From Blepharisma japonicum (Eukaryota > Ciliophora > Heterotrichea > Heterotrichida > Blepharismidae), in assembly GCA_949751835.1 (NCBI GenBank), contig CATKHK010000057.1:124001-188000 (forward strand): 64,000 bases of DNA, written 5' to 3'. Each line of letters starts with the position of its first letter. Position 1 is the stretch's first letter. Both the position numbers and the translations under genes were made by a program. Below are positions 1-44,522 of this stretch, one piece after another. Under the pieces are notes generated by a model, which was not told where the DNA came from, made no database searches, and saw nothing but the letters and a program-made list of their open reading frames with translations.

Positions 1-3000
1 TTTCGAAAGATGTTTTTCTTTAGGTGGAATTTCATCATGATGATGAGTATTTGCAAGTCTGTCCACAATTGACTGTGTAAGCTCAAGATAATGCTTACAA
101 GCAGATTTTCTAACACTATTTCAAAGATTATTTTCAATTTTTAGAGTTGAATAGCAAAATGGAGCCATAATAAGAACACATGCACCAAGGACAGCAATAC
201 TTAATACCAATAAAATCAGCATTTTTGCCTTGAAGTCTGATAATCCTGATTGTTGGCATTCTATAATATCATATAACGAGCTATTACAATAATGAAATGC
301 TTCTCCATAGCCACTCAAAACCATAAATGAGGCTTCATATGTGACGTCTTCTTGATTATCGAATTTTCTTGTAAATTCATTTCCCTATATAGCTTTTACA
401 GTATGAATAAATTTAGTTACTGTGTCCAATAAGCTTGTTTTTTCTCTAGCAACGTTATAATTTACATATCATAGATTGATATTTTGATCAGTAAAATAAT
501 TCCTCCCTGAGCACGAGCTTCAATCTGTTAGATTTGAAGTAATATATGAATGAATATTGTCCAGCTCTGTTAATACACCTTTAAACGCTGACATAGTGTT
601 AACAGCATACTCTCTAGTCCCAGCCTCCGGATAAGAAAGCACTAAAATAGTTTTCGCAAGATAAGCAGCATACTGCAAGTTTTTACCAACATTTCCAATT
701 GTCAAAGGAAGGCTCATATCACTGACTAAGTTAATACTGGAAAATGCATAAAATAGGACTGCGATATTTGTGGATATAACAATTAAGATCTAAATAAAAA
801 TTACTGATAGGACAAAAACAGAATGCAAAATATTTATGGCTCTTGAAAATATTTTTGTAATATTTATAAAATTTTTTAAGGAAGTGTGCTGAGACATTAC
901 AGATTTTTCGTCTATTTTTTCTGAAGAAAGATTCCCATGAAGGTCTGAGAAATTGTCAGCTTGATTAAAAATTAGTTTGCAATCGGAATCATAATCATGC
1001 TCTTTGTTTTCTTTTAAAGCTGGAGTAGTTGGCAAATTTAATGGGATTTCTATATTTTCGAATGGTTTTTCAATTCTTTTGGTATGACTAGGAGTTGTAT
1101 CATAGCTAAAATTCCCATGAAATCCTTTTAATTTTCACTGCTGTATTTCTTCAGGGTCATTTATTAATAAAATATATGGGATTTTAATATCATGAAACTC
1201 GAAATAGGCAAACACAAGGATGATATCTCTTTGAATACCAACTAAATTGTAAGGAGTAAATGGATTAAAATTAGACATTTCTAATTTTAGGATATTGCTT
1301 AAAACAAGTCCTGCTAAATTGCATTGGTCATTTCCAGAAAATTCAGAAAAGTTTTCAGTGTGGCATAAAATTTCCAAACTTTCTGTTATTAATGCAATTT
1401 GATGGCTAACTTGTTTAGCCTTAAAAGCAAGCACTGTTATAATACATTTGTTAATTGCAGTGATTGATGCTTTTCCTGTACATTCTAATATAAAATTTGA
1501 TGGCAGATATATAAAAAATCCATCATTTAAATTAATTTCTGAATTTGAGCCATAATGAGTAAACCACATAGATTTTTCAATAAATTTTTTTCTATAATAA
1601 GGAGGAATAAAATTAGATATGCTATTGCCAATTATGGAATCTGAAGTAGATTTTAAAAGTTCTATAGCTGCTGGATTAGTAAAAAGGATTTCTCCGAAAT
1701 TTTCTTCTTCATTTGAAAAAATTATAATTCCATTTGTATCATTAAAAAAATTAACTTGCTTAGTGTCGATTGTAGAGCTTTGAGCAAGTCGATCAAAATA
1801 TCTTAATTTATTATCAAGCATAATTGACTTTTCAATGTCATACAAGATATTTCTTGTATAAGATGCATAAAGTTCGAGTGATTCTCTAGAATTAGAGAAT
1901 TTCGTTATTATTTGACTATATTCATTGCTAAGAAGAGCAACACTGCTATCTATCGATTTCAGCTGCGTTATGAGCCTGCTCAAGATGGGTTTTTTTGATG
2001 TCACTTCTTTCCAAAATTTAAGTAAATCCCCGCATAATGCTTTATCTTTTCTTTTTATCCAGTTTAGCTGATGAAATAAGCTTAAAAATTGTGAACTTTC
2101 ACTCATGTAAGAATCTTCAATATTTTTCTGACATAAATAAGCCTGATAATTTATTTCTCAATTCCAATCCAAAATTGTTTTTATTTTGCTTAATTTTGCT
2201 TTAGCTAAAGATTCATCTTTTAAAGTAAATAAACAATAGTTTGTTTCTCATATAATCTGTAGCTTGCCTCTATTTTGAGTTATAAAAAATATCTCGAAGA
2301 GAAAAATAATTTGATCTTTGTTATTAGTATCATTTTCACATAAAGCATACCTTATAGCTTTTTCTAATTTGTATTGAGAATCAATATCTACCAGATTATT
2401 TGGTATTGTGATATTTACTCCTTTTTGCAATTTTAGGATAAAGTAAATAAAGCATATTGATATTATAGGCAGCAATATAATTGCAAATAAAATGATAGAT
2501 AAAGAATTATCTATTCAATATCCTAGAAGGAAAATAAAAGATATTAAAGCAATAACAAAAAATTTGAGGATCACTATTGAGCTGTAAAATATCGAAAAAT
2601 AAGGAAGAAATTTCATGCTCTCTACCATAAGAGTTAATGAAGCAGTCATTATCAAAAATTGATAAATAAAGATATGGTTTTCTGCAAGCATTACATAAAC
2701 AATCGGCAAAAAATACACAAAAATTGCTGTATGCGCGTCAATTCTTGAATGAGCCTTTGCTTTTAAAGTTCTCTTACTAGCAAAATGCCTAATTTCACCA
2801 GAAAATTCAGTGTAAAGCAAAAGTAAAAAAAAAGAAATAATCATCACAAAGACAATAGCGACTTGCAAGGCTGAGCTTATTTCAAATTTTTTAAAGCCAT
2901 TATTAAAATGATATTCTAATACTGTATCATGAGGCCAAAAATTATATTTTTCGAAGATGGAAAATAGTGTAAGTGAAGGTATAAAAAATAAAGTTAGCCA

Positions 3001-3453
3001 TAAATAGAATGCTCTTTTAAATAAAGCAAATGCCTGAGCTGGGATATCAAAGGATTTATATGTACAAATAACTAAGACAAAAATACCTAAAACATTAAAA
3101 ACAACCATAAAAATTGATAAATAAAGGCATTCTCCTATAATTGCAAATTCAGCACAAGTATTGTCAAATCTCAAATATCCTACAATTTCCCAAATATAAG
3201 AATTCCCACTCCAATTTTTAATTGGTAGGTTTGGGATTCAAATTAAAGCTATTATTTGAAAGCATCAAATTGAGGCCTCAAATATAGCTTTTGCTTTATG
3301 CCTGTAAATTGATTTCTCTCCAAAATTCTTTTTGAAGTAAAGTTGTCGATAAACTTCGAAAAGGGCTTTTATTCATGATTTTTCTCTTTTTACCCTCAAA
3401 AGCTTGCTTTTGAATGTGGTGACTTGACCTTTATCATCATCGATTCCAATCAT
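1..3453 (-). CDS. TmcB-like multi-pass membrane PAS sensor, paralogue A (3' end outside window)
   Basis: Predicted membrane sensor, subtype 1; function unknown. The start is the ATG at 3453 (MIGIDDDKGQ). With TGA as Trp one frame runs to the window edge, broken only by two 15-nt introns at 790-804 and 385-399, both GTAA...TAG and both with an in-frame TAG. Order: short cytosolic N-terminus, about eight hydrophobic segments (residues ~55-380), a helical region of the TmcB/TPR type (LEKAIRYALC, then the YQAYLC and LLKFWKEV motifs), a PAS domain from about residue 571 (NGIIIFSNEEENFGEILF, then the NFIPPYY motif), a PAS-like segment ending in PYILLINDPEEI, a membrane segment at intron 1 (residue ~883), a presumed extracellular loop with paired cysteines (YCNSSLY...C), and another membrane segment. 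The last membrane hairpin lies outside the window. The family call rests on motif memory, not on a search. Confidence 0.8.
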
Positions 3454-4667: not shown

Positions 4668-7600
4668 TTAATTAAAATGATTTCTCGGAATCAGCTTTGC
4701 TATAGCTTTCATCTTTTTAAGCCTTCTTTGTTCTTCAATCAAAAATGGTAAATAAATAGCGAAATATAAAATTAATGATAAAACAATAAAAAATGCTAAT
4801 GCGATAGTAATCCAATTCAATTGCTCTGAAATAGCAGTTTTTGAATCTTCATCTGCTAAATTCACCAATAAATCATATTGGCTGTCAAGGGCATTTATTT
4901 CGCATACTAAATCAAATCATAATACAAGATCATCACGGCCATTAACATCTAAATAATAAGCTTCAAAAGGCAATACTCCACCAGCAGCATAAATCCCAAA
5001 ATCAGCTATTTCTGCAACATTTTCAGTTTTCGCATAAAAAGCTTGCCTAAATTTTTCAGAAAGTAAAGAAGAATACTTATGGCTTCTTATTTCTTTTTCA
5101 GAATACCATAATGAAGATATCACATGACTAACTAGTGTAATTGCTTCTGGAAAGGGATAAGAGCTAGACATCATATTGCTTAATGAAACAGGGGCATCGT
5201 CAATTGATTCTTCACTTGTTCAAACAATTAATGATTTATACAGGACCTGAGAATTAATTATTTCTCTCAATATGCTTGGTCTTAATTGCAAATATGATAC
5301 ACAGCCATCGTATAAAAACAAAACATTTATCAAAAAGAAAGCCAGCGCTAAGGCAAAATAAGCAAAATTTCTTCATATATATTTTCAATAATTAATAAAC
5401 TTTGTGAAAGATTTTGTAGTTTTTATATCATAAAATCAAATATCGTTTTTGCCATGAATTGTAACTAATCTATCAATGCAAGTATTTTTTAGATTTTCAT
5501 GCTGTTCACAGGTGTGCCTTTTAATTTGGCTTCAAAGATTATTTTCAGAACTTACAACATGCTGAGCAAAAAACATTGTAATTATCAAGCATATTACTAA
5601 AACTATAAATCCTGCTGATAAGAGATAATTCATTTTTAAGCCTAAATCCTCACTTTTCTGCATCACACAGTCTGTAGAACTATATAAAGTACGATTACAA
5701 TAGTGTAGAAGATGGTCTAGACCATTTATATTGAAAAATTGCACCTGTTTAGTTTGGTCTTCACTGTTGTTTCATTTCTCAATAAATATATGCCCCTAAA
5801 TGCCATTTACCTGCAGAATAAATTCTGAAATTGCATCAATTAAATTAGTTCTTTTGAGAAAAAACTTATCATCAACGCTTCATAGGAAAACACTTTCATC
5901 CATAAATACATCTGTTCCTTCACAAATTTTCCAATTTGTTAGATCTCATGTAACATTATAATGAACCTCTTCCAATGTGTTTAAATTAATAAGAAAATGC
6001 TTAAAAGAAAAATCCACTAATTCTTGCACGCCATAAAAGCCATTAAGCACATTCATCCCTCTAGAAAAATGAGCAAGTGCTTGAACTGATTTTCCAATTT
6101 TTCCTAATAAAATAAGTAAATCAATATCACTTTGTTCAACAATTGCTGCTGAAGTGTAGATCAGCACAAATGAGTTTGTCAGCATTACAATAAGCATCTA
6201 TGTAGAAATTACAGCTAAAACAAAAACAAAATGGAAAATTTTGATTGAGCGAGACGATAAATTTGTGATTTTATCAAATGTGAGGTATCAAGAATAACTT
6301 TCTGAATTCTGTGAAAGCTCGATTTTTTGAGAATTTTCAAAGACTTCATATTTATGTTGGGGCAAATCGAGTAAAATGTTATGCAATGGAAATGGCTCAT
6401 GATTTTTCTCAATGGAGAGGTGCCTTTGGTTATTTTTTCAGGCTTCAATTTCGTTTTGATTATTAATTAATAAAATATAATTAATCCTTGTGTCATAAAA
6501 CTCCATATAGCAAGGAATTAAATAGGTCTCCACATCAATATCAGCAAGAGGATAAGGGGTAAAAGGCTGTAAATCTATATGCTTTAGGCTTGGGAATATC
6601 TCTTTAATATTAATACCAGTTAAATCTTCAGACAATTTTTGTGAAAATTTTGCAAAATTTTCACTTTGGCAACAAATTTCTCATTCCGAATCAATAACAG
6701 CAAATTCTTGAGGGAGTATTATTTCTTGAAATACAAATAAAAAAATTAGATGGTCTGATATAGATGATAGTATAACTTTTCCAATACAATCAATAATAAA
6801 TCTGTTAGGCAATAATAGGAAAATATGATTAGGAATTTTTATTTCTACGTCTAAAATAGAGCTAATAAAATCCGGCCCTTGGGAAGATAAATATGAATCA
6901 TAAGGAGGTGGAATAAAAACTGAAATTTTATTTTCTATGATTTGGTTAGCAGGGTATTTGAGAATTTCTGAGGCTTTTTGATTTGCGTATAAAATAACCC
7001 CAAAACTTTCATGTTCACAAGAAATCAGCATTATCCCATTATTTTCATCAAAAAAGCTTAAACCTAAACTTGTTTGACTTGGCTGACTTGCAAATTCTTC
7101 AAGTGTTTGAAATTTATAGTTTAGCTGAATTGATTTATTGTAGTCACATAAAATTTGCTTAATAAATGTAAGATAGCAATTTAATGCTTCTTTTGATTTT
7201 GGGAATTTTTCATGGAGACTTGAATAATGTTCTTCAATAGAAGTTGCTGACTGCGATATGAAGTCCAACGCTTTATTCAATTTTTGAATATTCGGCTTAG
7301 GCGACACTATTTCATTTCAAAAATTAATAAGCTCTATGCATAGAGATTCGTCTTGGTTTTTGATTTGATTTATATTTTTGAAAAAATCTAAAAATCTAAG
7401 ACCTTCTTCTGCATTTGATTCTGAAACAATTTTTCTGCAAATAAATTCTTGATAGTCTCCTTCAATGCTATGATCTGAATATTTTGCTTTGCAAAGCTTT
7501 ATTTTTGCTAAGGCTTCATCTTCTAGAGTAAAAATGCAATAATTCGTCTCCCATATAGCAAAAAGCTTATTTTCGTAATTTTTAATCCTATTAAATGTTT

Positions 7601-8762
7601 GGCCGAAAAATGAAAGAATTTTATTTTTATTTCCTATATCATTTGTGCACAAATATAGTCTCAAATTCTTCTCAATCATGTAAATATTCTTCTCATTGCC
7701 TATTTTATCTGTAAAATTTAACTTTTTGACGATTTTTTTTATCAATTGAATTGTTAATATAGTGAATAAAGGTATTAATGTAAAAACTGATAGTAAGACA
7801 ATTAGCGATGCATTAATAATTTTTGCAGAAATAAATAGAAATGATAGGAAAGAAATTTCGAAAAATTTGATCGATACCAAACAATTCATAAATAAATTAA
7901 AATAAGGTGCCATTTTAAGAGTTTCTATCATTAAAATTGCAGAAATTACCATCAAAATTGTTTGCCAAAGCATGGTATTATCAACTCCTAGTATTACAAA
8001 TAATATTGGCATTATTGCTGTATAAGAAACTGTGTAAATATCAATTATTGAAAATGCTTTCGATCCTATTATTTGGTGAGCCATTGAATGCCTAATTTCT
8101 GCTGTGCATACTGTTGTCATTAAATTAATAAAATACTGTCCAATTATACTGAAAATAATTAAAATTTGGATAGGGATACTCAATTCAAAATATGAAAATT
8201 GATTATTTTGTTCGTATTCTCAAATAAAATTTTCAGGAAATCAATTATATTTCAAGCAGATAAAAAATAGGATAGATATGGGTACATATAAAACATTTCG
8301 AAAAGCATAAAACATGCTTTTAGAAATTTTGATCATAGATTTTGGTATTGAAAAAGAATAATAAATTAAAATCACAATAACGAAGATTCCTATGATATTT
8401 GCTATAACAAATACAATTGATGAATAAATGCATAAGCTTATAACACCAAATTCTGAGCACAAATTATCTAATCTAATATAACCAATTAATTTTCAAATTT
8501 TTTTGTTATCTTTCCAATCACTTATATCTAGATGTGGAATTCATAATAAACTACCAATTTGAATGAATCAAATAAATTCAACAATCAAAAGCTGCATTTT
8601 CTGAGCCAAAATTGACTTTTGTTTTGGTTTCCTTTCATAATAAATCATCCAATAGAGTTCAAAATACGAATGAATCAAAGATTTTTCTTGTTGTTGATAG
8701 TTGAGACTTGATGGTGAGTTTTTATCATTTAGTTCAAGATCAGTAAAGTTTATTTTTCACAT
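4668..8762 (-). CDS. TmcB-like multi-pass membrane PAS sensor, paralogue B
   Basis: Subtype 2 member of the array. Start ATG at 8762, where codon 2 is TGA (MWKINFTDLELND). It stops with TAA at 4668. Removing 15-nt introns 6198-6212 (GTAATTTCTACATAG) and 5796-5810 (GTAAATGGCATTTAG) leaves 4065 nt, 1354 residues, in one frame. Layout: first membrane segment around residues 60-80 (IGSLLWIPHLDI), about seven more to residue ~370, helical TmcB-like region (YQEFICRKI, LCIELINF), PAS from about residue 566 (FFDENNGIMLIS... with the FIPPPYDSYL motif typical of subtype 2), PAS-like segment ending INYILLINNQNEIE, membrane segment at intron 1 (~850), cysteine-bearing loop (FRYCN-type motif, C pair), then a second hairpin with RSHKYSSLLSEKFRQ and a last membrane segment before IPRNHFN. 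Function is not known; a sensory role is inferred from the PAS domain and the external loops. Confidence 0.82.
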
Positions 8763-9149: not shown

Positions 9150-12100
9150 TTATGTATCATGAATATTTATAATTTTTTCAGGCATAATTTGCAGCATTGA
9201 ATTTATCTTTTGCAAATATTTTTTCTCACATCTAAAAAATGTCAAGTAGACCCCAAAGTACATCAGAATAGAAATTATGATAAAAATTGCTAAAACTCCA
9301 ATAATCACACTCATTTGATCATCAATTACATTTTTTGAATATTGATTATATTGTTCAATAAATTCATTATAATCATCATCTAGTTCTTGAAGGCTAATCA
9401 TCAAAGCAAGCCAAATATCGACCGACTCACCCTGCAGTCTTGAAATTAATAGTCCATCAAATATTGATATTTCTCCTCCTGAAAAAATCCCTAAATGGTG
9501 CACTTTAATGTCACAGTCATCATTCTCAAAAAAATGTTCTTTAAAACTTCTAGGTAAAATTGAAGAATATTTAGATTTTCTAAAAGTAAGCTGAGACGCT
9601 TGTATCTGAACAATAATGTCATCTAAATTTGATAAAGCGTTGCTAAAAGGACTCCCTAATGATAGCATATCTGCGAGTGAAAGACCTGGGTACTGCATGG
9701 CTGCTTCTGTAACTCATATATTTAAACTTGTAAATAAAACTTGAGAAGTAATTAGCTGTTTTGTAACTTCAGGCCTATAATATAAATATTCTGCACATTT
9801 TTGGTAGAAATAAGTAATATTTATTATGCAGAATATTGAAGTTGCTATTAAAAATAAGGTAACTCTTCATATGTATTTTCAATAACTTCTGAAGCTTAGC
9901 AAGTTTTTTGATCGGTTTCCGTTGAGTACAACTGTTTCATGCTGATTGTGGACTGAATTAAGTCTAGAAATGCATGACTGTTTAAGCTCAACGTAATTTT
10001 TGGTGGCATATTTTCTTATATTATTTCATAGCAAATTTTCAGTCTTTATAGCAGAGTTACAAAATGGGACCATAATAATAATGCCTGCAGAAAGCACTAC
10101 AATTCCTAGTACCAATAATATATATATTTCAGTTTTAAAATCAGAAATCGCTGACTTTTCACAGTCTATCACATTATATAGAGAGTCATAGGAGTACTTA
10201 AAAGCTTCCCCATATCCATTTATGGCAAAAAATGCAGTTTCTTTATAAACATTTTCTCCATTATTGAATTTTGTAATAAATTCATAACCCTATATGAAAA
10301 TTACAGATTGAACAAACTGCCCAATAGTGTCCATGAGAGTGGCTTTTACCTTGTACATTCCGTCATCAATTTTCCATAAATTAATATTTTGTTCACTAAA
10401 AATGCTGTTTCCTGAGCATGAATGCCAATGAGTCAAATTTGTAGCTGCATTTATATACAAATTATCAAGAATTTTTACATTTTCTTGAAAACGATTAAAA
10501 CAAAGCTGAACAACGTCATCGACGCCTCCCAATCCAGAAAGCATTAAGACCAATCTTGAAAGAACGCCCAGTTGCTGAAAAGCCTTACCTGCGTCTCCTA
10601 TAGTTTTTGGAAGGTTTATATCGCGGACAATACCAATGCCATTAAAGGCGTAAAATAAAACAGCTAGATTGGTAGCGAGGACTACAGCTATCTAATTATA
10701 ATTTACTAATATAACAAAGACAATATGCAGAGCATCGATTGCTCTTGATGAAATTTTCATCATATGAAGAAAAACGCTCAAAGATGAGCTTTCTGTTTGA
10801 GATTTTTCGTCATCATTTTTTTCTTTTATATGATTATTTACTAATTTTGTAGTTTCGTTTGGATTTGGTAGGTAATCTGACTTAGGATCAGCGAATTCTT
10901 TAGACATTAATAAAGAATTTTCTTCAGAAGGTGAAGATCTGAACATATGGAATGATAGTGGAGTTGCCTTTATAAGGCTTTCATCTTGAAGATCATCTTG
11001 TTGTCTTCATTTTTCGTCTTTTCATTTGAGAATTTCATCAGGATCGGTTATCAATAGTACATAAGGGATTTTTATATTATAAAACTCTGTGTAGCACAAC
11101 ACCAAAATTGTTTCATTTTCAAAGCCTGATAAACGGTAAGGAATCAGTGGCTGAAAATCTATTTCTTCTAAATCCGGAAATAAAGATTTTATATTAGCTC
11201 CTACCAAGTTATCATGACCAACAATACGAGGAAAATCTTCTGTATAGCAATAAATTGCTCCAACTTCCGATATCAAAGCTACTTGATGGACCGATTTATT
11301 TAATTTGAATACAAGTATAGTCACAAGAATATTATTAATCGAAGTTATTGATGCTTTTCCAATACACTCTAATAAGAAATTTCTCGGGGAAATAAAAAAA
11401 CATCCATCATTAAAATATATTTCTGTTTTTGAGCTAAAATGAGTCATTTCATTCATTATATGAACTGTTTTTTCGTTATAAGGTTCTGGAATAAAATGAT
11501 TTATATTATTTCCCACAATCCCATGAGTTGAAAGTTTAAAAATTTCTGCTGCCCTTGGACTTGCAAAAAGAATTTCTCCAAAATTTTTTTCCTCGTTAGA
11601 AATTAATAAAATCCCATTATTTGAATTAAAACAGCTTAGATTTTGGGCTTCATTGGTTACGCTAGAAAAAATCCTCTCAAAAAATCTGAGCTTGTAGTTA
11701 AGTTTATCAGAGTTGTCATAATCATGCAAAATATTCCTCATATATAAAAAATATAAACCTAAGGCATCTCTTGAGTTATGGTATTTTGTAGTAAGCTGCT
11801 TATATTCGGTATTCAGAAAAGTAATACCATCATTAATTGAATTCAAAGATTTGATTAATTTAGAAAATGATGGCTTTTTTGAAGTAACTTCCTCCCAAAA
11901 AACTGACAAATTGATACATAATTTTCGATCTTGCTGTTTTATTTGATGGATTTTATGATAATAATTCTCGTAAGCTACACTTTCGTTAGAATCTGATTCC
12001 ATAATAATTTTATTGCATAGATATTCTTGATATCTTGCTTCTAAGCATCAGCCTGAAATATGCTTAATTTTTGATAATTTAATTTTGGCTAAGGCTTCAT

Positions 12101-13343
12101 TTTTTAATGTAAATAAGCAATAATTTGTTATTCATATAACTTGAAGCATATCTCTATGAAAACTCTTTGAAAGAAAAAAAATTTCAAAAATCCTAATAAT
12201 TTCATCTTTATTTTTGACATTTCCGGAACATAACGCATATCTGAGGGATTTTTCTAAATCATATTGGCTTTTTATTCCTGATATATTTTCTACAATATCT
12301 TTGCTTAATTTTCTCTGTATTTTTAAAGCATAAATAATGATAAATATAATAGAGATAGGGAATAAAAAAATTGCAAATAAAGTAATAAATAGCGAATTGT
12401 CAATGCAATAACCAAATATAAAAAGAAAAGACATTAAAGTAACTGTAAAAAACCGAATAATTATAAAAATGCTGCAATATTCAGAAAAATAAGGTAAAAA
12501 TGTAACAGTCTCAGCTAATAAAAATGCAGAGGTAATAAGTGCTAAAATCTGCAAATGTATAATATAATTATTAGCAAACATTGAATATAAAATAGGAAAA
12601 GTAAATGTAAAAATTGCTGCATGAATATCAATTTTTGAATGTGCTTTGGCTTTTACTATGCTTTTTTGTGTACAATGCCTGATTTCACCTGAAAAATTAG
12701 AATACAAAAACATCATCAAGAAATTAACTATAATCGCAATAAAGCTTAATGCTTGTATTGGACTTGATATTTTAAAATTTGCTGAATTGTCATTTTTTTC
12801 ATATTCGGATACATTTTTTTGTTGTGAAAAATTGTACTTAAGAAATATTGTGAATAATTCCAAAGAAGGTATATACAAAATATTTAGCCATATACAGATT
12901 AGTTTCTTGAATACGCTAAATATAATTGCTGGTAAGCGAATATTATAATAAAGAAGTAATACTAAAACAAAAACACCTAAAAAAGCAGCGAAAACATATG
13001 CTATTAAGATATATAAGCATGTATCAGCAATTCCAAGAGCTGAACAAGTATTGTCTATTTTTAAATATCCAATAATTTTCCACATAATCATATTTTCTTT
13101 TCAATCTTCAATTGGGAGGTTTGGAATTCATAGTAAACTGACCATTTGAAGGCATCAAATAAATACTTCAATTGCTATTTTGACCTTTTGCTGCGGTAAA
13201 GTTTGGCCTAAATAGCTCTTTTGATAGTAAAGTATAGAGAAAAACTCAAAAATTGCACTTAATATAGGTTTTTCATCTTTTAGGTTAGCATTCATTTTGT
13301 TTAGAGAAGAAGCTCCACTTATTTCAGCTTCGAATTCTATCAT
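9150..13343 (-). CDS. TmcB-like multi-pass membrane PAS sensor, paralogue C
   Basis: Subtype 1. Start ATG at 13343 (MIEFEAEISG), stop at 9150 after NIHDT. With introns 10692-10706 (GTAAATTATAATTAG) and 10290-10304 (GTAATTTTCATATAG) removed it reads as 1387 residues in one frame. N-terminal membrane bundle to about residue 350; helical region (LEKSLRYALCSGN, YQEYLC, LSVFWEEVTSKKP) ~360-560; PAS from ~570 (NNGILLISNEEKNFGEILF, HFIPEPYNE); second PAS-like part ending YVLLITDPDEI; an acidic, polar linker (KEKNDDEKSQTESSS) before the membrane segment at intron 1 (~879). The two external loops follow; the last one has LPRSFKEHFFE and CDIKVHHLGIFSGGE. The final membrane segment is followed by a short basic tail. 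The gap to gene B is 387 bp, the shortest in the array. Confidence 0.83.
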
Positions 13344-28805: not shown

Positions 28806-29050
28806 ATGCGGAAACTAAATTACTTATCTTGAATTAAATGATGAAAGCTCACCATCAAACCTAAAGTATCAACAAGAAGAAAAATCATGGCTTAATTCTT
28901 TTTTTGAGCTCTATTGGATGATTTATTATGAAAAGAAACCAAAACAGAAGTCAATTTTGGCTCAGAAAATTCATCATTTGGTTGTAGAAGTTATTTGGTG
29001 TATTCAGATTGCTAGTTTATTGTGAGTTCCAAATTTAGATATAATTTTTT
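28806..29050 (+). pseudogene. Inverted 5' relic of an array gene (resembles paralogue B)
   Basis: On the plus strand, opposite to the whole array, an ATG at 28806 opens a decayed copy of the N-terminus of a subtype 2 gene. Readable pieces are LELNDESSPSNLKYQ, FFELYWMIYYEKKPKQKS, ILAQKI and IWCIQIASLLWVPNLDI. They match gene B (LELNDKNSPSSLNYQ, FELYWMIYYERKPKQKS, ILAQKM, SLLWIPHLDI). A two-base deletion near the start shifts the frame, and similarity ends after the first membrane segment. No matching downstream gene follows on this strand. Confidence 0.75.
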
Positions 29051-30108: not shown

Positions 30109-33100
30109 TTATTCAGGCATGAGATTAAGCATTGAATTTATTTTCCTCAAATAATTTTTCTCTCTTCTAAAAAATGTAAGATACAACCCCAGATAAATTC
30201 CAAACGATAAGCCAATAAAAAGAACCAAAAATATGATTATTGTGCTTATTTGATCATCTATTAAATTTTGTGAATGATGATTATTCTCATCAATAAATTC
30301 ATTGTATTCATCATCCATTCTTTGAAGTTGGATTATAAATTTTAGTCAATCTTCGACGCTAGCATTTTCATAATATGCAATATAATAAGCATCAAGCATT
30401 GCAACTTCTTCAGCTACATAACTACCATATATATGCTCTTGTACATCTCCATCTTTCTGATATTCATACAACTCTTCTATATAAGATTTAGCAAGAATAT
30501 TTTTGCATTTCGTATTTCTTAGCGATATTTGAGAGTCCTTAGTTGAAGCAATAATATCTCTAAGCTTAATGTTGCTGTCGCTAAAAGGAAGCTCAAATGG
30601 TAGCATGTTTTGTAAAGAATAGTCAGTTGTGTATAATCCTGTTTCACTTGTCCATATGCTTAAACTTGTAATTAAAACTTGTGAATGAATTAAGGACTTG
30701 ATGACTTCAGGTCTGCAGTATAAATCTTCTGTGCATTTTTCATAAAAAATTAAAATATTCAGTAAGCAGAATAATGAGGTTATTATAAAAAATAAGCTAA
30801 CTCTTCATATATACTTCCAATAGTTTTTAAATTTCAGCCGCTTTTTATATCGGGTTTCCTCATGATAAGTTAACTCAAGTTGAGAATGAACATTCACAAG
30901 TCTTTTAAGGCATGCTTTTTTCAGACGATAATAATGCTTGTATGCATTATTTCTAATATTGTTTCAAAGCATGTTTTCAGTTTTTATTGCGAAATAGCAA
31001 AAAGGAGCCATTACACAAATTCCAATTGCAAGTGCCACAATCCCTATTATCAAGAGAGCAAACATTTCAGTTTTTAAGCCAGAGATTTTCGATTTTTTGC
31101 ATTCTGTAACATCGTATAGCGAATTATTGCAATAATTAAAAGCTTCCCCATACCCATTTAGTGCAAAAAATAAAACTGCATCTGAATAATCTTCTGTTGT
31201 ATTGAATTTTCTTATAAATTCTTTTCCCTTTATAAAAATTACATATATAATAAATCTGGAAACAGTGTCTATTAAATTTGCTTTTTCTTGATATACTTGA
31301 GGATCAATATTTCACAAATTTATATTTTTCCCTGTAAAAATACTTTGACTTGAGCATGAGTCTCATTTTGTCAAATTTGAGCCGATGTTTATATAAATAT
31401 CTTCAAGATTGGCTACATCAGATTTAAAAAGATTGAAGCAATACAAAACGGCTTCCTCAGATCCTGGAAAATAGGAAACTATCCCAATGATTCTCGAGAG
31501 GAAGCCCATTTGTTGAAAGGATTTCGCTATATCTCCTATTGATCTTGAAAGGCTTATGTCTCGTGCTGAATTAATGCTATAGACAGCATAAGATAAAACA
31601 GCAATATTTGAACCTAATACTATGAGAATCTAAATAATTGTTACGCATAAAACAAAAACACAATGCAAAGCATTAATTGACCTTGCCGATATTTTCATCA
31701 TATGAATAAAAACAATTTGGTTTTCATTATCTGTATTTTGAGTGTTTTCTTTATATTTATCCATCAAAATATTTTCAATCATTTTTGAAGTCTCATCTGA
31801 TGACTGATCAGACTTAGACTCAAGGATTTCTGATTGGTTTATTTCATCATGAATTATAGAAGAATCTTCGATTGTGAGTAGCATATTCTTATTTTTTTCT
31901 TCTCTTTGCGTTTCTACTTTAAGAGAGCTAGAACTGTCAGTTGTCCACTTTTGAATTTCTTCAGGATCATTAATTAATAATGCATAAGGGATTTTTATAT
32001 TAAAGCACTCTAAATATGATGAAACCATTATTGTTTCTTGGGCAAAGCTATGCAATCTATATGGAATAAATGACTTTATGTCAATCTGTTTTAGATCGTA
32101 AAATAAATTGCTGATTGAGGCTCCTATCACGCTTTTGTGAGATGTACTCGCAGCTGCTGGAAAACCTTCTGAACAGCTAAAAATAACTCCATCATTTGAT
32201 ATTAGAGCGGATTGATATTTTGCTATTTTTTGCTTGAAAATCAAAATCGTTACAACTATGCTATTAATTGAGGAAAATAGAATTTTTCCTGTGCATTCTA
32301 AAAGAAAATTCATGGGTGAAATTAAAAAAAAACCTTTGTGTAATGAAATTTCTGTATCAGAGCTAAAATCTATCAATTTAGACAATTTTTCAAGAATTTC
32401 GGTATTATAAGGAAAAGGAATAAAATTCTTTATATTACTCCCAATAATAGAATCCAGAGGAAATTTCAAAGTTTCTGCAGTCTTTGAATTTGAATAAAGA
32501 ACTTCTCCAAAATTTTCTTCTTCGTTTGAAATTATTAAGACTCCATTATTTGAATCAAAATAACTAAAATTTTCAGTATTCTCTAAATTCAAAAAAGTCT
32601 CTTTTAATGACTTTAGCTTGAAAATAAGCATCTCTGATCTCTCAATTTCATACAAAATATTTTTCAAGTATGAAGAGTAAAGAGACAATATTTCTTTAGA
32701 TTTATCATATTTTAATACCAATTCTTTGTATTCATTATTGAGAAACTCAATTCTTGCATCTATTGAATTAAGTGTTTTGGTTAATTTGAAAAATCCAGGG
32801 TTTTTAGAAGTAATTTCTCTTCAAAATTCTAATAAATTCAGACATAATTTTTTGTCTTCTTTTTTAACCCTATTTATATTTTGATGGTAATTTCCAAAAG
32901 ATATACTTTCATTTGAATAGGCACTCATAATAGCTTTATTGCACAAGTATTGATGATAATTAGCCTCAAAACTCCAATCTGAAATATTTTTGGACTTGCT
33001 CAATTTAATTTTAGCCAGGGCTTCATTTTTTAAAGCATATATACAGTAGTTCGCAGCCCATACAATTTGAAGTTTATCTCTATGCATTATTTTTTCCTTA

Positions 33101-34260
33101 AAAAATATTTCAAATGTGCCAATAATTTCATTTTTATTTTCAACATCATTTGAGCATAAAGCTCTCCTAAGATATTTTTCTAGATCAAATTTATTTTTAA
33201 TTTCAGCAATGGTTGGAGGGGTGCTTAGTTTTGATTTTTTCGAAATAAACTGAATTATACATAAGATAGATATTGGTACTAAAATAATTGCTAAAATTGT
33301 CATAAGTAAAGAATTATCTATTCAATATCCCAAAATAAAAAGAAATGATATTAAGGCCACAAAAGTGAATCTAATAATTTCTAGTCTATATGAGTAGACA
33401 GAAAAATAAGGTGAAAATATCAGGATTTCTCATATTAATAATGATGAAGTAGCTAAAACCGAAAATTGAAAATAAATAGTAAATTTATCAATTGATAGTG
33501 GATAAAGAATTGAAAAAATGAATGTAAAAACTGCTGCATGGAATTCTATTCTTGAGTTAGATTTTGCTTTTATAATATTTTTCGCAGCACAATGACGTAT
33601 TTCTCCTGAAAATTCAGATGAAAGTATTGCCATTAAAAAGCTTAACATAATAGCAGAAATACTCGCTATTTGTCATGATGCAGTAAATTTAAAGTCAGAT
33701 AAATTATCGCTATTTTCATATTCAATTACATGATCATGATTAAGAAAATGGTATTTAGAAAATATGGATAATAGCACTAAAGAAGGTATGTATAATAGTC
33801 CTAGCCACAAATAAATAATTTTTTCAAATATAATTACTAGTGTTTTTGGCACTTTAACTGAATAATAAAGCGACAGGATCAATAAAGCAGTGCTTGAAAA
33901 AATTGCGAAAATTCCAGCAATTGATATGTAAAAACATTTATCAATAATTCCCAAAGTTGAGCAAGTATTATCTATCCTAAAATATCCAATAATTTTTCAG
34001 ATAATCATATTACTCCTTCAATCTGTGATTGAAAGATGAGGAAATCAGAGCAAAGTTATGATTTGGATGCATCAAAAAATAACTTCAATCGTCAGCTTAA
34101 TTTTTTGTTTCGTCAAAGAATCTTCTCCGGAAATCTTTTGATAGTACACCAAGCTGTAAAACTTAAAAATAGATTTTATAATTGATTTCTTTGGGTTAAG
34201 CTCAATCTTGTTTTTCCTCAAATTCATCGGATGGTCAATTTCACTATCTAGATCAAACAT
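30109..34260 (-). CDS. TmcB-like multi-pass membrane PAS sensor, paralogue G
   Basis: Subtype 1. I chose the ATG at 34260 (MFDLDSEIDHPMN) over an in-frame one at 34278 because it matches the start of gene F. Stop at 30109 after LNLMPE. Introns 31630-31644 (GTAACAATTATTTAG) and 31228-31242 (GTAATTTTTATAAAG). The second has no stop and would read VIFIK if retained. Spliced length 1373 residues. PAS from about residue 573 (SNNGVLIISNEEENFGEVLY, NFIPFPYNTE), then PYALLINDPEEIQK. The linker to the membrane segment is the longest of subtype 1: acidic and Ser/Asn-rich (about 80 residues, IEDSSIIHDEINQSEILES in it). C-terminal loops: SKCKNILAKS-type motif and YGSYVAEEVAMLDAYY. Last membrane segment, then RREKNYLRKINSMLNLMPE. 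Confidence 0.82.
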
Positions 34261-34904: not shown

Positions 34905-37900
34905 TTAATATTTGAAATATCTATCAGGAATAATCTTTGACATTTCTCTCATCTTACTAAGATATTTTTTTTCTTGTATCAAAAAAGATAAAAATATTCG
35001 TAAATAGATTATTACTGATACAATGCAAAAACATATTAGTGCTGCAATAATAAAGCTTAATTGACTCTCTATGAGATTCTGTGAATCATGATCGGCAATC
35101 TTAATTAAAACATCATATTCTTCATTAAAAACACTTAACTCTTTGGTTAAGCTATACCAAAAGTCAAGGAAATTAGGATCATCTGAATTATCCAAATAAA
35201 AAGCTTCGAAAGTTAAAACTTTCCCTGCTGCATAAACTCCATAATTTGTGATAATATTTGAGCTTTGGCATTTTTCATAGAATAATGCATTAAATTCATG
35301 AGATAAAAGAGGAAAATATTTAGAATGCTTGATAGCTTTTTCTGATAAGGCTATAGAAGCTGAAGCATGATCAACTTCATATCGAGGATCACTAAAAGGA
35401 TATGCTTTATCTATATTAATAGTCAAAGATACTGGGAACGCTATTACAGAGACCTCACTTGATCATATCCATAAAGATTTATATAAAGCCTGGTTGTTTA
35501 TTAAATCTCTCAGTAAGCTTGGTCTCAAATATAAATACGTTAGGCAATCACTGTATAAGTAAAGGATGTTCATTAAAAAGAAAGCCAATGCTAATATAAA
35601 ATATATAAAAATTCTTCAGCTGAATTTTCGATAGTTTCTTAAATCAGAGTTTTTGCTAATATTATTTCCATCACTGAATAATATATCTTGCTTGCCATGA
35701 GTGGTCATAAGTCTATCTAAGCATGCTTGCTTTAATTCTATGTAATTGGTGTATGCATGCTCTTTTATTAAATTTCAAAAAATATTTTCCATATTTATCA
35801 CAGCCAACGCAAATGGAACAGTAAACCCTAGACAGAGAACTAGGGTTCCAAACCCAACTGCTAATAGGATATTCATTCGATATTTCAAGCCATTTATGCC
35901 TTGTATTTCACAGTCTGTAAGGCTATTTAAAGTATTATTACAGTAATGAAATACTTCATTTACTCCATTTCTTACAAAATATTTTATTTCAGTATCCAGA
36001 CTTTCATTATTATTCACTTTCCTTATAAAATCATAACCCTTGCTAATAGTATCTAAGACAGCATCTATTAAATTCGACTTTTTCTTACTAATGCTGTTGT
36101 CCTCATTTCATATATGTATTGCTTCATGCACAAAAGCATTTTCTCCTAAGCATTTATGAACTCCCAATAAATTATCAGTTATATTTGTATGAATTTCTTG
36201 AAGCAGAAATAATTGTGCTTTAAAACTATCAAAAGCATAATTAATTAATTCCTGTGAACTTCCAAAAAGTGTTAGCACATGTACAGCCCTCGAAAAAAGT
36301 GCAATTGACTGCATAGCTTTTTCAGTGTTTCCCAAAGTTATCTGCATATTAATATCACTTTCAGAAATAACTTTAGTTGAAGTGTATATCAGAACTATAG
36401 AATTTGTTGCCATAACAATCAACATCTAAATAGAGCTTACAGCAAAAACAAAAGAAATATGAAAAATTTTTATTGATCGTGACGATAAATTTACGATTCT
36501 TTTCAAAGCAAAATGCTGGGATGTATTGATTGTTTTATTTGAATGCTTTTCTTCTTCAAAGCTTTTCCCGCTATGTTCTTCTGCAACTTCAGTGCTATCT
36601 ACATTTCCTATATGCGTATCCCACTTCGGCAATTCTTCAATCTTTGTTTGTTTTTTTATTTTCTTTTTTTTTATTATATCGCTGTTATCAGTGCTTAATG
36701 ACCGTATTAAATTCAATGAAATTCTATTTTTTGAGGTAAATTTTATGATTTTTCCAGTCTCTTGAAATTCATCAAACTCCCCGCGCCGACATGCTTCAAT
36801 TTCTTCTGGATCATTTATAATCAAAATATAATTGATATTTACGCTATAAAACTCAGAATGACAAAAAATTAAATACGTTTCAATTTCCATATATGAAAGA
36901 TGATAAGGGAAAAAAGGCTTAATATTTTCTCGCTGAAATATAGGGAGCATGTCTTTCAATTTATAACCCCTTAAGTTATTATTGGTTTTCCCAACAAATT
37001 GAGGGAAATGCTCTGAGTGGGAATAAATTTCTCCCTCGTCAGAAATCAAGGCAAATTGATGAGAACTATTTCGGTTTTTAAATACTAATATAAAAATTAA
37101 GTGGTCAGATATGCAAGAAAGAGAAGCCTTTCCTTTGCATTCAATAATAGATTTGTTGGGCAATTGGAGGAAAAAATACTTTGGGAGTTTTATTTCTGAG
37201 TCTGACACGTATTGAAGAGAGGAATAAAAAATATCATCTGTATAGGTATTATAAGGAGGAGGAATAAAAAACTGCAATTTGTTATCGATAATTCCATTGA
37301 CTGGGTATTTTAATATTTCTGAAGCTCTTTGGTTAGCAAATGTTATTTGGCCAAATCTTTTTTGTTCAGCTAAGCCTAGTAAAATTCCATTTCCTTCGTC
37401 AAAAAAACTTAAACTTTTAGTGTCCCTTGAAGAACCATTTGCAAATTTATCAATTGATCGCATTTTGTGTTCTAATATTATAGATTTTTCGGTATCACAT
37501 AATATATTTCTTGTAAATGAAGAGTAAAGCATTAGTGCTTCTTTACATTTAGGAAATATTAAATGTAGATGTGAATATTCTTTATCTAAATACGATATAG
37601 AATCAGATATTGATTTTAAAAGGCCATCCAATATAGTTAAACTTGGCTTTACTGAAACAATTTCTTTTCAAAAATCTAAAAGCTCCATACACAAAATTTC
37701 ATCTTCTTGCTTCGCATCATGAATTTTTTGGAAATAATTCAGATACTCAATACTTTCATTTGTGTCGAATTCAGAAAGGACTTTTTTGCATAGATATTCT
37801 TGATAGTTTCCTTCCAAGCTGAAATGCGAGTATTTTGATCTTCCAAGTTTTATTTTAGCCAATGCCTCATCATTTAGGGTAAAAATACAATAATTTGTTT

Positions 37901-39128
37901 CTCATATTGCTAGAAGTTTGTTTTGATATAATTTACTACAATTATAGCATTTTCCCAAAAAATAGAGAATTTCTGCTTTAGCTTCAATATTATTTGAGCA
38001 AAAAATCGGCCGTATTTTACTCTCAAGGGCATATATATTTTCTAATCTCTTAGGGTCAATAGGAACATCAAAATTTGTTTTCTTTAGTAAATTAACTAGT
38101 ATTCTTGCAATTATAATATTTAAAAATGGGATTACAAGAAATACAAATAAAGGGATCACAAGAGCGTTATCTATAATATTCCCAAATAAAAAGGCAAATG
38201 ATATCAAAAAGATAGTTGAAAATTTTAATAATTCTAAAAAGTTCATAAAAGTATTAAAATAAGGCAAGCTTCTTATAACATCTAAAGCCAAAACTCCAGA
38301 AATAATCATAAAAATAACTTGAAAGTACACGATATTGTTCTCTGCTGTAATTGAATAAATTATAGGTGCTAAAAAGGCAAAATTAGCAGAATCCAATTCT
38401 AAATTTGAATGTGCTTTTGAATTTAATTTTATTTTTCACACAGAATGCCTTATTTCACTTGAGAAAATAGTATTCGTTATTATCATAAAATAATAAATAA
38501 TCAAGGTAAAAACTATTCCAATTTGTATCCCAATAGGCACTTTTAAGTCTTCTGTCGAATCTTTATCTTTATACTCTAAAGCCGTCTTTTCAGGTGAAAA
38601 ATTATATTTAAAACATATACAAAGTAGTGTGACTGTCGGGATTAATAAAAAATTTGACAAAATATAAAGCATTTTTTTTATTATATTGACAAAAATTTCT
38701 GAAAATTTGACTAGCTCGTGAATTAAAATCACGAATATAACAATTAAGATAGCAGCTAGTCAAACAGTTGTAAGGGATATATAAATGCAAAAATTTATAA
38801 TTCCTATTGAGGAGCATGCATTATCCAGTCTTAAATGTCCAAAATATTCTCAGATTGTTTTGTTATCATTCCAATTGCTAATTGGAAGATGAGGAATTCA
38901 CAGTAAACTTGCAATTTGAATGCACCAAATTGTAGTAATAAAGACTATGTGTATTTTTTGCTTGATAATTGAGATTTCTTCAGGCTCCTTTTGGTAATAA
39001 GCAAGTCGATAAAATTCAAATATTGACTTGATCAAGCAGGGTTCTTGTTTATGCCTCTTATGCTTTTTAATAAATTCTATACCTAAGTCATTTTCGTTTG
39101 CAAAGCTGGTCAATGCTAAATTTGACAT
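34905..39128 (-). CDS. TmcB-like multi-pass membrane PAS sensor, paralogue H
   Basis: Subtype 2. Start chosen at the ATG at 39128 (MSNLALTSFANENDLG), matching MSNLTFTDFG of gene I, although the frame is open to an ATG at 39185. Stop at 34905 after DRYFKY. Only one intron, 36426-36440 (GTAAGCTCTATTTAG). At the second site the coding sequence runs straight through (DTISKGYDFIRK) with no GT...AG insert. Length 1402 residues. PAS from about residue 578 (FFDEGNGILLGLAEQKRFG, FIPPPYNTY), then EGEIYSHSEHFPQFVG and INYILIINDPEEIE. The linker is unusual in being basic (IIKKKKIKKQTK) then acidic (AEEHSGKSFEEEKHS). The C-terminal loop has HSKYFPLLSHEFNALFYEK and NYGVYAAGKVLTFEAFY. Confidence 0.82.
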
Positions 39129-39325
39129 AATTAATATATCATGACAATCAGATTTTAAGTTTAAAAGTAGTCTATTTGATTTCATATAAAACTATTGAGT
39201 AGAAATTATTAAATAAATGAGGGTGATTTTTTTTTAGAAAACTATAGGAAATAAGAAAATACTATGTATTAATTTGAAGAAAACTAAAAAATAGTTTTGT
39301 TGCCATTCGAAGAAATTTTAAAAAC
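39129..39325. other. Short intergenic stretch upstream of paralogue H
   Basis: About 200 bp of AT-rich DNA leading into the decayed copy; no feature recognised. Confidence 0.35.
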
Positions 39326-40220: not shown

Positions 40221-40310
40221 TAGAATTGGCAATATCCTTTATTTTTTATTAATTTTAAATTTAACTATGAAGCTTATCACTATTCTTTATATATAAAGGA
40301 AAATTAATAT

Positions 40311-43300
40311 CTATCGGATATATTTATTAGGAATTAATTTTGTAATTGATTGCATTCTTTCAAGATTCTTTTTTTCTCTGCTGAAAAATGGTAAATAGCA
40401 CCCTAAATACAATGCCAATGAGCTTGCCACAAATAGGACTAGTGATGCGATAATTAAATTCAACTGAAACTTAATAGCAGTTTTTGATTCAGTATCAACT
40501 AAATTTATTAGCAAATCAAATTCATTATCAATATTATTTAATTCTATCATAAGGTATTCCCATACGACCAGAAAATCAATTCGATGTGAGTAATCCATAT
40601 AAGAACTTTCAATTGCAAGTAGTTTTCCTGCTGGATAAGTTCCATATTTTAAGAAGTTGCTTATATTTTCTGTATTCTCATAGAATAATTTCATAAATTC
40701 ATCATTAAGCAAGATAGAATATTTTTTATTTCTTAGTTTTTTTTCTGAGTAACTGAGATATTTTCATACCTCATGAAACTTTGCCTCAGTTGTCATAAAG
40801 GGGTTAGAATTTGGCAACAAAACGATAAGAGACTGTGGAACGTCGACAACTGTCAGTTCGCTAGATCAAACCATTAAGTTTTTATATAGAACTTGCGTAT
40901 TTATTAAATCTACTAATAAATTAGGTCTCAGATATAGTAGCAATGCGCAATGCTTATATAGATACAAGCTGTTCAACAAAACAAATAAAAGTGCTATCAG
41001 CAAATAGGCCAAAATCCTTCACACATATTTTCAGTAGTTTTTCAAGTTCGCTTCCTTACTCTTTTTCCCTTCATCAGAAACATTATAATCTCTTTCATGA
41101 ATATTTATAAGTCTATCTAAGCATGCCTGCTTTAGTTCTCCATAATTTATATAAGCATTCTTTTTTATTAAATTCCAAAAACTATGTTCCATTTTGATAG
41201 CTGATAAGCAAAATGGAATAATAACAATAAAACAAAGGAGAAGAATGCCAAACCCTACAGATAAAAGAATATTCATTTGCAGCTCCAGAGTGTTTATTTC
41301 TTCTGTCACACAATCATTTAAGTCAAATAAAGTATCATTGCAATATCTAAATGCTTGCCAATAGCCATTTAAGCTGAAAAACCTCAATTCATCAGAGTTA
41401 TCTTCTTTATTTTTTTGTTTTTTTATAAAATCATTGCCATTTTTTATAAAATCTGATATTATATTGATAAGATTTGTTTTTTCCAAATGAATTCCTCCAG
41501 TTGTGCTTCATATCACAGCTTTTTCATCAGTAAAAATGGTCATAGAGCATGATTTTCAATTTAATAAAGTTGATACTATATTCTGATATAATTCTTCCAA
41601 ATTTTTTGCCTGGATGTAATAATTTTCATAAGAAAAAGCTAATATTTCAGGTGGACCATTTAAAGAATCAATAACTGAAACAGCTCTAGCATAAAATGTA
41701 TATGCATGAAATACTTCTTGTAGCTTCCCTAGTGTAATAGGCACATCAATATTGCTTTCACTTTTAACTTTTGAGGATATATAAAAAACCACTATTAAAT
41801 TTGTAGCTATTGCTGTTATCATCTAAATAAAAATTACAGAAAGTACTAGCATTATATGAAAAATTTTTAATGCTCGGGTAGATAATTTGACTAGATGGTT
41901 TAGCACATAAGTTTGTGAAAGAGACTCAGATTTTACTGAAGACCTTAATGAAGATTTTTCATTTTCTATCATCCCTCCACTTAAAAGAAAGTCAAAACTA
42001 CTATCAAAATGTGAAGTGTCAGTTTTAAAGGTGGTTTCTTTAGAATTTAATTTATGTGAAAAATGGTTAGTTTCTTGGTTTTTAAAATTTTGGCTGCTAT
42101 TAATAGTTAATTGTCGTTTTAAATGTAAAGCACTGTGGACTTTTTTAATAATGCCAGATTCTAGGAGTTGAGGGCTATTTAAATGTTCATGCTTTCAAGA
42201 TGAAATTTCATAAGGGTCTCTAATAAGTACTATATATGGAATTTTTATATTGTAAAATTCCATGACACAATATGCTAAAAATGTTTCAATAACTGTTGAA
42301 GGGATTGAATAAAGCTTTCATGATTGCAAGCTTGTATCAGGTAAGTTAGGAAATAGCTGAGAAATATTACAATATTTTAAATTTTTCAATTTTTGAGATG
42401 CATATTTAGAGAATTTTTTAGAGTGCCCATAAATATCTCCGCTACTTGAGATAATGGCGAATTGTCTCTTGGCGATTTTTTTCCGAAAAAGAAGCACAAA
42501 CCATAATTTGTTAGAAAAGCAAGCTATTGAGACTTTTCCAGCGCACTCTATAATATGCTCATCAGGCAAGGCAAAAAAGAAATTATCAGGAATCTTCAAA
42601 CTAGCATCATCTACCAGCTGCAGTAAATTGCAAAGGCTTTTATTAAATAACTCACTATATGGATGAGGTATTATCAATGAAATATTATTCTCTATAATTG
42701 CATCCATAGGGCATTGCAAAATTTCACAAGCCCTTTCATTCGCAAAAATTATTTTTCCAAAATTTTCAATTCCTGCGGATGCTAAAATTATTCCGCTATC
42801 ATCGTCGAAGTAGCTAAAACTTTTGTTATCTTTTGAGGAGCTTGTAGTAATTTTATCAATAGATTTTATTTTGTATTCTAATAGCGCTGATTTTTCGTTA
42901 TCATATAAAATATCTCTTACAAATGAAGAATAAAAAATTAAAGGCTCTTTACATTTTGGGAATAATGAGCCTAAATGTGTATATTCTTCGTTTAAATATG
43001 AAATAGACCCGGATATTGACTTTACTAGCCTATTTAGGATATTTAAATTTGGTCTAATAGATACTAATTCTTTTCAAAAATCCAAAAGCTGAGTGCAGAG
43101 AATCTCATCTTCAAGCTTCGATTCATAAATTTTCTGAAAATAATCTAGATATTGAGCACTTTCGTTGGTGTGAAATTCTAATAGTGTTTTTTTGCATATA
43201 TACTCTTGGTAGTTTCCTTCCAAACTGAACAGTGAATTTGCTATCTTGCTGAATTTGATTTTGGCTAAAGCTTCATTATTTAATGTAAAAATGCAATAGT

Positions 43301-44522
43301 TCACTTCTCATAGTACTAAAAGCTTGTTTTTGTGTAGCTTGGTACCATTATAGCATTTTCCTAAAAATGTTAGTATTTTATCTTTAAATTCTATATTATC
43401 TGAGCATAAAAATGGCCTTAAATAATGCTCTACACAAAATAAGCCTTCTAGTCTTTGAATATCTGAAGGAATTTCTGGCTTAATTTTTTTTACTCTACGC
43501 ATCAAGTATTGTACAATAAATACACATAGGATTGGCATGACAGTTAAGGTAAACAAAGTTATCAAGAAAGCTTTATCGATTAAATTTCCTAGAAAAAATA
43601 TTCCAGCTATACACATAACTGCACAATATTTTACTGTGATTAAATAATTCATGAAAATATTAAAGTATGGCAGACTTTTAATCACTTCAATTAATAAAAT
43701 CAAAACAATAATCATAAAAGCAAATTGGAAATATTGTATATTATTTTTTGAAACTATTGAATGAAAAACCGAAAAAATAATTTCAAATAAGGCACAATGA
43801 ATTTCTATTTGTGAATGCGCCTTTGAGTTTAGGTCGAAATTTATTACAGAATGCCTGATATCACTTGCAAAAACAGAATCCATTAAAATGATTATAAAGC
43901 ATAGCAGCAAGCTCAAAATTATCATGAATTGCATGGCAGTAACTACTTCAAAGTCTTTTCCTTCACTATTATCATAGTAATCAGCGGCATTTTCTTGATT
44001 TGAAAAATTAAATTTCAAACAAAAAGTAAGCAATGATATAGATGGGATAACCAAAAATTTTGTTAATAAATATAGGCTTTTTTTGCAAAAACTTAACCAA
44101 AGCTCTGGAAATTTTATTGATTTATAAAATAAAATTGCAGGAATTGTAATTAAAGCAAAATTGACCAAAATTGTGGAAATTGAGGCATAAATGCAAAAAT
44201 TAATCACCCCTAAGGCAGAGCACGCATTGTCTAACCTTAAAAAGCTGATTAAATTTCACATGCCCATACTTTTTTTTCAGTCTTCTATAGGAAGATTAGG
44301 AAGCCATAATAGACTTGAAATCTGAAAACATCAAATTGTAGTGGTAAAAACAACTTCTATTTTCTGCTTTAAAAATGATTTTTCTCTAGGTATTTTTTGG
44401 TAGTATGCAGCTTTGTAAAACTCGAAAATCAATTCCAAAGGAGAATTTTTATTTTTCCTTTTTTCTGTAAGGCTAAGATTTTCAGTTGTTTCTCCGAAAT
44501 CAGTAAAAGTCAAGTTTGACAT
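40311..44522 (-). CDS. TmcB-like multi-pass membrane PAS sensor, paralogue I (first gene of the array on the minus strand)
   Basis: Subtype 2. Start ATG at 44522 (MSNLTFTDFGETTEN), stop TAG at 40311-40313 after PNKYIR. One intron only, 41823-41837 (GTAATTTTTATTTAG). The second intron site is absent (ISDFIKNGNDFIKK), as in H. Length 1398 residues. PAS from about residue 564 (DDDSGIILASAGIENFGKII, IIPHPYSELF), then SGDIYGHSKKFSKYA. The linker is long and rich in Ser, Asn and His. This copy has TGG in HSFWNLIKK where other copies have TGA at the aligned site (ENNL-W-N), which supports TGA as Trp. The C-terminal loops show RYCNDTLFDLNDC and NKKYSILLNDEFMKLF. The 5' flank faces the plus-strand gene at 45414. 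Confidence 0.83.

Follow-up and report, generated by a model that had tools for sequence, protein, structure and literature searches.

The 64,000-nucleotide stretch of Blepharisma japonicum DNA analysed here (the window; C57:124001-188000, from a genome of 45.2 Mb in 224 contigs) contains nine paralogous genes, A to I, which follow one another head to tail, all on the minus strand, at positions 1-44522 (Table 1). They were translated with TGA as Trp and with introns of 15 nt (GT..AG, phase 0) taken out. Every intact gene of the window is then one constant frame interrupted by such introns alone, and seven genes (B, C, D, E, G, H and I) give full stop-free frames of 1354-1421 residues. An earlier account made from the letters alone, called here the sequence-only reading, had described nine genes of one plan on one strand and seven uninterrupted frames under this code, and both statements hold. 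Its length range of 1354-1402 residues is reproduced when gene H is begun at its second ATG (1402), but the longest frame of H has 1421. In their exon-1 parts, genes A, B and D to I share 34-48% identity with gene C. Gene A runs left past the window to C57:123272 and is intact in the contig, with 1383 residues. Chance or an artefact of frame reading is ruled out, as the frames are conserved in Blepharisma stoltei and the intron places are common to this array and a second one on contig C38.

Table 1. Genes and other features in the window, by window position
Feature	Position	Strand	Details
Gene A (C57_123)	1..3453	-	cut by window start; introns 790-804 and 385-399
Gene B	4668..8762	-	1354 residues; introns 6198-6212 and 5796-5810
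Gene C	9150..13343	-	1387 residues; introns 10692-10706 and 10290-10304; B. stoltei P0001 at 87% identity
Gene D	13939..18054	-	1361 residues; intron 15457-15471; intron 2 stop-free, visible by alignment only
Gene E	18795..22889	-	1354 residues; introns 20322-20336 and 19926-19940
Gene F	23494..28067	-	interrupted; introns 25015-25029 and 24616-24630
Insert in gene F	26802..27205	-	about 0.4 kb; 40% GC; ends uncertain by a few bases
Inverted relic	28822..29043	+	N-terminal fragment of 74 residues; 73% identity to gene B
Inverted repeat, imperfect	29746-29844		between F and G; 41-nt arms, 71% complementary; 17-nt spacer; once in the genome
Gene G	30109..34260	-	1373 residues; intron 31630-31644; intron 2 stop-free, seen by alignment only; B. 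stoltei P0003 orthologue
Gene H	34905..39185	-	1421 residues (1402 from second ATG); intron 36426-36440; without intron 2
Gene I	40311..44522	-	1398 residues; intron 41823-41837; without intron 2
Open reading frame	45339-48065		908 residues; right of array; no Pfam match at E <= 0.1
WW/FF-domain PRPF40-like protein	48163-49752		right of array
WD40 protein	51104-54775	-	right of array
CID-domain protein	60989-61672	-	right of array
Ras-like GTPase	62120-62740		right of array

The array is larger than the nine genes to which the sequence-only reading had confined it. Over C57:54001-208000 it contains 19 genes at 68.6-168.5 kb (about 100 kb), all on the minus strand and 18 of them intact. A stretch of contig C38 (C38:189001-369000) holds 29 further gene models on both strands, 25 of them full frames, while C38_257 stops short at 1297 residues; one more copy lies just past this stretch, at C38:369.9 kb, so that the second array has about 30 genes. 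From the 48 models in the two stretches, F, C38_292, C38_297 and C38_348 were omitted before splicing and C57_112, C38_196 and C38_207 before alignment; the 41 rows that remain include C38_257. A gap of 4 kb within the C57 array contains a minus-strand open reading frame of 266 residues (C57:94423-95220) with no Pfam match at E <= 0.1.

The place of intron 1 is identical in all 44 copies aligned and also in F; in eight copies this intron is stop-free. Genes A-G have intron 2, which is missing solely from H, I, C57_102 and C57_108. The last three form one clade at 100% in the tree, and H falls in the same group of 11 rows. In C57_112, C38_196 and C38_207 intron 2 has 16 nt. The genetic code and intron size of the array genes fit those of B. 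stoltei, for which passages of PMC9942806 give UGA as Trp and introns mostly of 15 and 16 bp.

Genome-wide searches extended the family beyond these two arrays. Gene C exon 1 found at least 52 places (best of 197 candidates scored), gene I exon 2 at least 85 (best of 195 candidates scored) and the Pfam TPR_TmcB profile, with 150 of 174 candidates scored, at least 146 places on 38 contigs (E <= 0.001). Of the profile's places 140 exceed the curated cut-off and six, including that of gene E, fall below it; the same profile had no match in 14 control genomes, all prokaryotic. Of the 146 places, 104 make up ten runs, each with at least three places within 15 kb, while random placement, modelled with contig ends left out, gives a mean of 0.9. 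The largest runs are on C58 (24 places), C38 (22), C57 (15) and C50 (11), and smaller clusters were seen on C40 and C56 (8 each), C20 (5), C78 (4) and C51 (3).

The plan of the protein is described with the numbering of gene C, in which the ends of membrane helices were set by eye from hydropathy and a structural model. About eight membrane helices are predicted at residues 49-340, followed by TPR-like helices at about 360-520, a PAS fold at 577-681 and, from the secondary structure of the model alone, a probable second PAS-like order of strands at 687-765. A disordered linker (about 783-856) leads to the C-terminal half. There the transmembrane helices TM9 and TM10 flank outer domain 1 (891-1062), TM11 and TM12 flank outer domain 2 (1171-1334), a cytoplasmic helix joins TM10 to TM11, and a short tail ends the chain. 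The predicted topology has about 12 membrane passes with both termini in the cytoplasm, and the alternation of loop charge matches this arrangement in all loops that carry charge. Each outer domain is modelled as an outward four-helix bundle held between two membrane helices that continue into it, a predicted membrane-anchored fold of the bacterial 4HB/NIT/PilJ type. Between 33 and 40 of the 41 rows have Cys at each of positions 971, 1041, 1051 and 1173, and 37 of 41 have a sequon at position 1042. The model of exon 1 has a mean predicted local distance difference test score (pLDDT) of 73.1 and a predicted template modelling score (pTM) of 0.55 with 33 sequences; for the C-terminal half of gene I the values are 81.7 and 0.76 with 15 sequences.

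Comparison with Pfam TmcB/TPR and PAS profiles, which the sequence-only reading had named as a check, bears out the inner part of this plan. The TPR_TmcB profile scores above its curated cut-off in all four window exons that hold the region (A, B, F and I; 32-50.9 bits against 27), and a PAS domain follows the TPR part, as in the TmcB family. Two profiles, A1 and A2, were built from the two halves of the array protein. In alignment A2, 13 of 15 members match TPR_TmcB at E <= 1; the other two are exons of the C-terminal half that lack the region. The outer bundles gave no such sequence match. Among 15 members no Pfam match to the bacterial 4HB, NIT or PilJ profiles was found at E <= 1, with filters that remove most matches above 0.1; a genome search with the NIT profile is uninformative, as it matched nowhere, its controls included. 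A search of PDB sequences returned nothing with profile A2 and, with A1, ribosomal protein L24 alone (E 0.43, chance level); Foldseek with the C-half model gave nothing at E <= 0.001. There was no Pfam match to the methyl-accepting chemotaxis protein (MCP) signalling domain in the window exons or B. stoltei proteins scanned, and no catalytic domain above the Pfam cut-off in the exons and proteins scanned.

The nearest relatives found are in B. stoltei. All 25 matches of the first protein search come from this species, the best at 87% identity over the whole length, as do all 17 matches with the C-terminal half; these searches depend on shared words of five residues, which remoter relatives may escape. 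The relatives are automatically named 'TmcB/TmcC TPR repeats domain-containing' or 'PAS domain-containing'. A tree of 70 rows, in which two of 31 B. stoltei proteins (below 850 residues) were excluded, contains many one-to-one orthologue pairs between the species, and the arrays are therefore older than their split. Orthologues of the C57 genes lie on one B. stoltei contig of 1,026,051 bases, and a contig of 1,349,163 bases carries most orthologues of the C38 genes. The tree also contains recent local duplicates (C57_73/78/83, 89/97, C38_257/262 and 313/318).

More distant members of the family are dispersed in the genome. A piece of 1053 residues from a gene on C54 has 98% identity to B. stoltei P0032, 68% to Stentor SteCoe_1458 over 68% of the query and 22% to a Plasmodiophora protein (PBRA_000878) over 60%. 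A description of this gene as single copy was dropped, since two places on C54 score alike and B. stoltei P0035 is a second relative at 60%. Alignment of the array family with the dispersed group by hhalign covers nearly the full length (Prob 99.9, E 7.1e-37, 1308 columns; in a second comparison Prob 100, E 1.3e-41, 1169 columns) at an identity of 7-12% in both. Thus the array copies are full-length, faster-evolving cousins of deeply conserved dispersed genes. In the PAS domain of the dispersed members a His-Asp pair is invariant (H663 and D664 of P0032, 12 of 12 rows); array members do not have it, and most rows carry Leu, Ile or Phe at the His-Asp position. Heme PAS domains of the FixL type carry His at that place, and NCBIfam lists FixL and DosP for the dispersed PAS domain, far below their cut-offs. 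The dispersed domain is a possible heme sensor.

Variation among the copies is concentrated at particular sites. Identity was compared among paralogues and in 18 orthologue pairs hand-picked from the tree, of which 15-18 per domain passed a length filter. Between paralogues the two outer domains (0.36 and 0.33) have the lowest identity among the folded parts; the membrane part has 0.43, the TPR part 0.48 and the PAS domains 0.42 and 0.41, while the N-terminal tail and the linker have 0.31 and 0.20. In the orthologue pairs, with domain means of 0.75-0.93, the outer domains (0.84 and 0.83) are conserved equally with the rest (0.81-0.85). Entropy of the C-terminal half, computed in steps of six residues with exon-2 numbering, peaks at residues 49-72 (3.0-3.1), where helix 1 of bundle 1 turns into helix 2, and at 325-330 (3.2), the matching turn of bundle 2. 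Other high values are found at 385-390 (3.0) and 409-432 (2.4-2.9). The second turn of bundle 1 has no peak (1.9-2.3), and the lowest values are found at the foot of bundle 1 (about 1.5-1.9) and at TM11 with the foot of bundle 2 (0.9-1.6).

The genes are under purifying selection. The ratio of nonsynonymous to synonymous substitution rates (dN/dS) for whole genes is 0.18-0.36 in nine hand-picked paralogue pairs. Fast positive selection on the outer domains was considered and is not supported: by domain, where one dS value was incomputable, all ratios are below 1, the highest being 0.86 for the second outer domain and 0.83 for TM9 in the pair C38_313/318. Nor do the outer domains stand out in the ratios of orthologue to paralogue divergence. 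The pattern agrees with recognition parts that first diverged as duplicates and were later retained; it does not agree with a fast arms race. The proposal of membrane sensors whose varied outer loops recognise changing signals, made in the sequence-only reading, is supported in part.

Several features point to turnover within the arrays. The insert that interrupts gene F has a higher guanine-plus-cytosine (GC) content than its surroundings (about 28%) and occurs once in genome searches. Ends that are flanked by TA and keep the frame exist, yet several TA pairs satisfy this; the insert is possibly a retained germline element (internal eliminated sequence, IES) or a transposon remnant. The inverted relic at 28822-29043 derives from a B-like gene, and C38_297 and C38_348 appear degraded. 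In 10 of 41 rows the nearest neighbour differs between the N-terminal and C-terminal halves, and C38_242/247 are 64% identical in the former and 78% in the latter, which suggests gene conversion between neighbours. The counterpart pair in B. stoltei differs likewise along its length, with 64% identity against 72% and 84% for the two outer stretches, and the exchange in C38_242/247 is therefore probably old.

Possible hints of expression come from B. stoltei gene models. Six of 31 (P0002, P0015 and P0022-P0025) end three residues past a Val at an intron place, as would be expected had the intron been left in. P0009 and P0012 retain an intron-like insert of five residues, while P0003 and others cross both places without one. 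The Intronarrator method of annotation, named in published passages on that genome, reportedly relies on RNA reads. If the B. stoltei models did rely on RNA reads, some copies may be well transcribed and others hardly.

Taken together, we somewhat favour the explanation that the array belongs to a repertoire of membrane sensors for external, probably chemical, cues that evolves by birth and death; in these proteins the variable outer bundles would sense and the TPR-PAS part would recruit an effector. The first eight helices would lead into the TPR-like helices and the two PAS folds in the cytoplasm, and the last four would carry the two outward bundles. A cue could bind the variable distal turns or their vicinity and displace the long helices, much as bacterial four-helix-bundle receptors work; the signal might then travel across the membrane domain and reach the TPR-PAS part. 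A separate effector is proposed because no catalytic domain was found with Pfam. More tentatively, the arrays may form the chemoreceptor repertoire of a single cell, with well over 100 receptors of TmcB type that cross the membrane 12 times, carry paired bundles variable at their tips and diversified in the manner of odorant receptors. That gamone receptors are among them is a guess.

Other functions could be imagined for such proteins. They might be structural, adhesive or mechanosensing surface proteins of a large contractile cell with no soluble ligand, their variation reflecting the pairing of partners or relaxed constraint. Outer domains that are predicted to be mostly helical and anchored at both ends would suit this role, as would the lack of a catalytic domain above the Pfam cut-off. 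However, TPR and PAS parts are kept in intact genes and orthologues, variation peaks at the turns and not along the bundles, and a repertoire of this size would be more usual for recognition families, which makes the suggestion unlikely. We also regard it as improbable that the proteins are transporters or channels, in which the eight N-terminal helices would form a pore and the role of the outer bundles and PAS domains would be regulatory only. These eight hydrophobic helices have no assigned fold, and exon 3 of gene C has a weak match to Cation_ATPase_C (E 8.7e-5, 22.8 bits against a cut-off of 27.3), but this match covers the C-terminal helices and not the eight. No Pfam channel or transporter profile scored above its cut-off in the exons scanned, a weak test as the eight-helix region was neither modelled nor searched on its own.

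A role in mate recognition or in telling self from non-self, with one or a few copies as gamone receptors and a diversity that tracks mating types or species, is quite improbable. The TmcB family takes its name from a sexual-stage protein of Dictyostelium with a role in sexual macrocyst development. Passages of PMC10892320 still call the gamone receptors of Blepharisma putative, a point in favour of this role. Against this, the outer domains are kept between orthologues of two species, dN/dS between paralogues is below 1 and the array would be far larger than two mating types need. Sensors of internal compartments (contractile vacuole or pigment granules) with bundles facing the lumen are least probable; the topology indicates only a non-cytoplasmic side and the sequon at position 1042 is compatible with any secretory compartment, and although nothing specific speaks against them, the size of the repertoire would speak for many cues.

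Among the open-licence literature matches listed, taken as titles and the start of abstracts, none describes these arrays or TmcB in ciliates, nor an array, ectodomain or function in B. stoltei, and none deals with the macrocyst role of the Dictyostelium gene; the family name is already known, while the paired bundles and the scale of the arrays are absent from these matches. To our knowledge, the recognition of food, toxins and mates by ciliates is poorly known at the level of receptors. The sensor repertoire favoured here would supply a defined set of candidates whose outer part is modular, whose genes are intact and which have one-to-one orthologues in the well-studied B. stoltei; with a public RNA time course for that species (ERR6049461-ERR6049485, named in PMC9942806) the question becomes directly testable. 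The deeply conserved dispersed members beside many array copies also offer a good example of how receptor genes arise and are lost in a unicellular organism.

The array proteins can be compared with three known systems. They resemble the TmcB/TmcC family (Pfam PF25474, 'tiny macrocysts') in having the TPR_TmcB region, then PAS, several membrane passes, a long linker and a C-terminal membrane part. They differ from dispersed TmcB members in being shorter (about 1390 residues against mostly about 1450-1730), more divergent (75-93% identity for orthologue domains against 98% for the C54 piece and P0032) and heavily duplicated in tandem. With the bacterial four-helix-bundle sensors (NIT of NasR, NarQ, 4HB chemoreceptors and PilJ) they share a helical bundle between two membrane helices, and NasR pairs two bundles; however, no sequence similarity to these sensors was detected, no MCP or kinase output domain was found, and the array proteins are eukaryotic with TPR-PAS inside. 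The repertoires of animal odorant receptors, which are unrelated proteins, likewise have tandem arrays, birth and death, broken copies and one plan with a variable recognition part, although chemoreception by the array is our inference. If it is correct, these sensors would be the counterpart in this cell of a smell-receptor repertoire, with a sensing head of bacterial style on a eukaryotic TPR-PAS protein.
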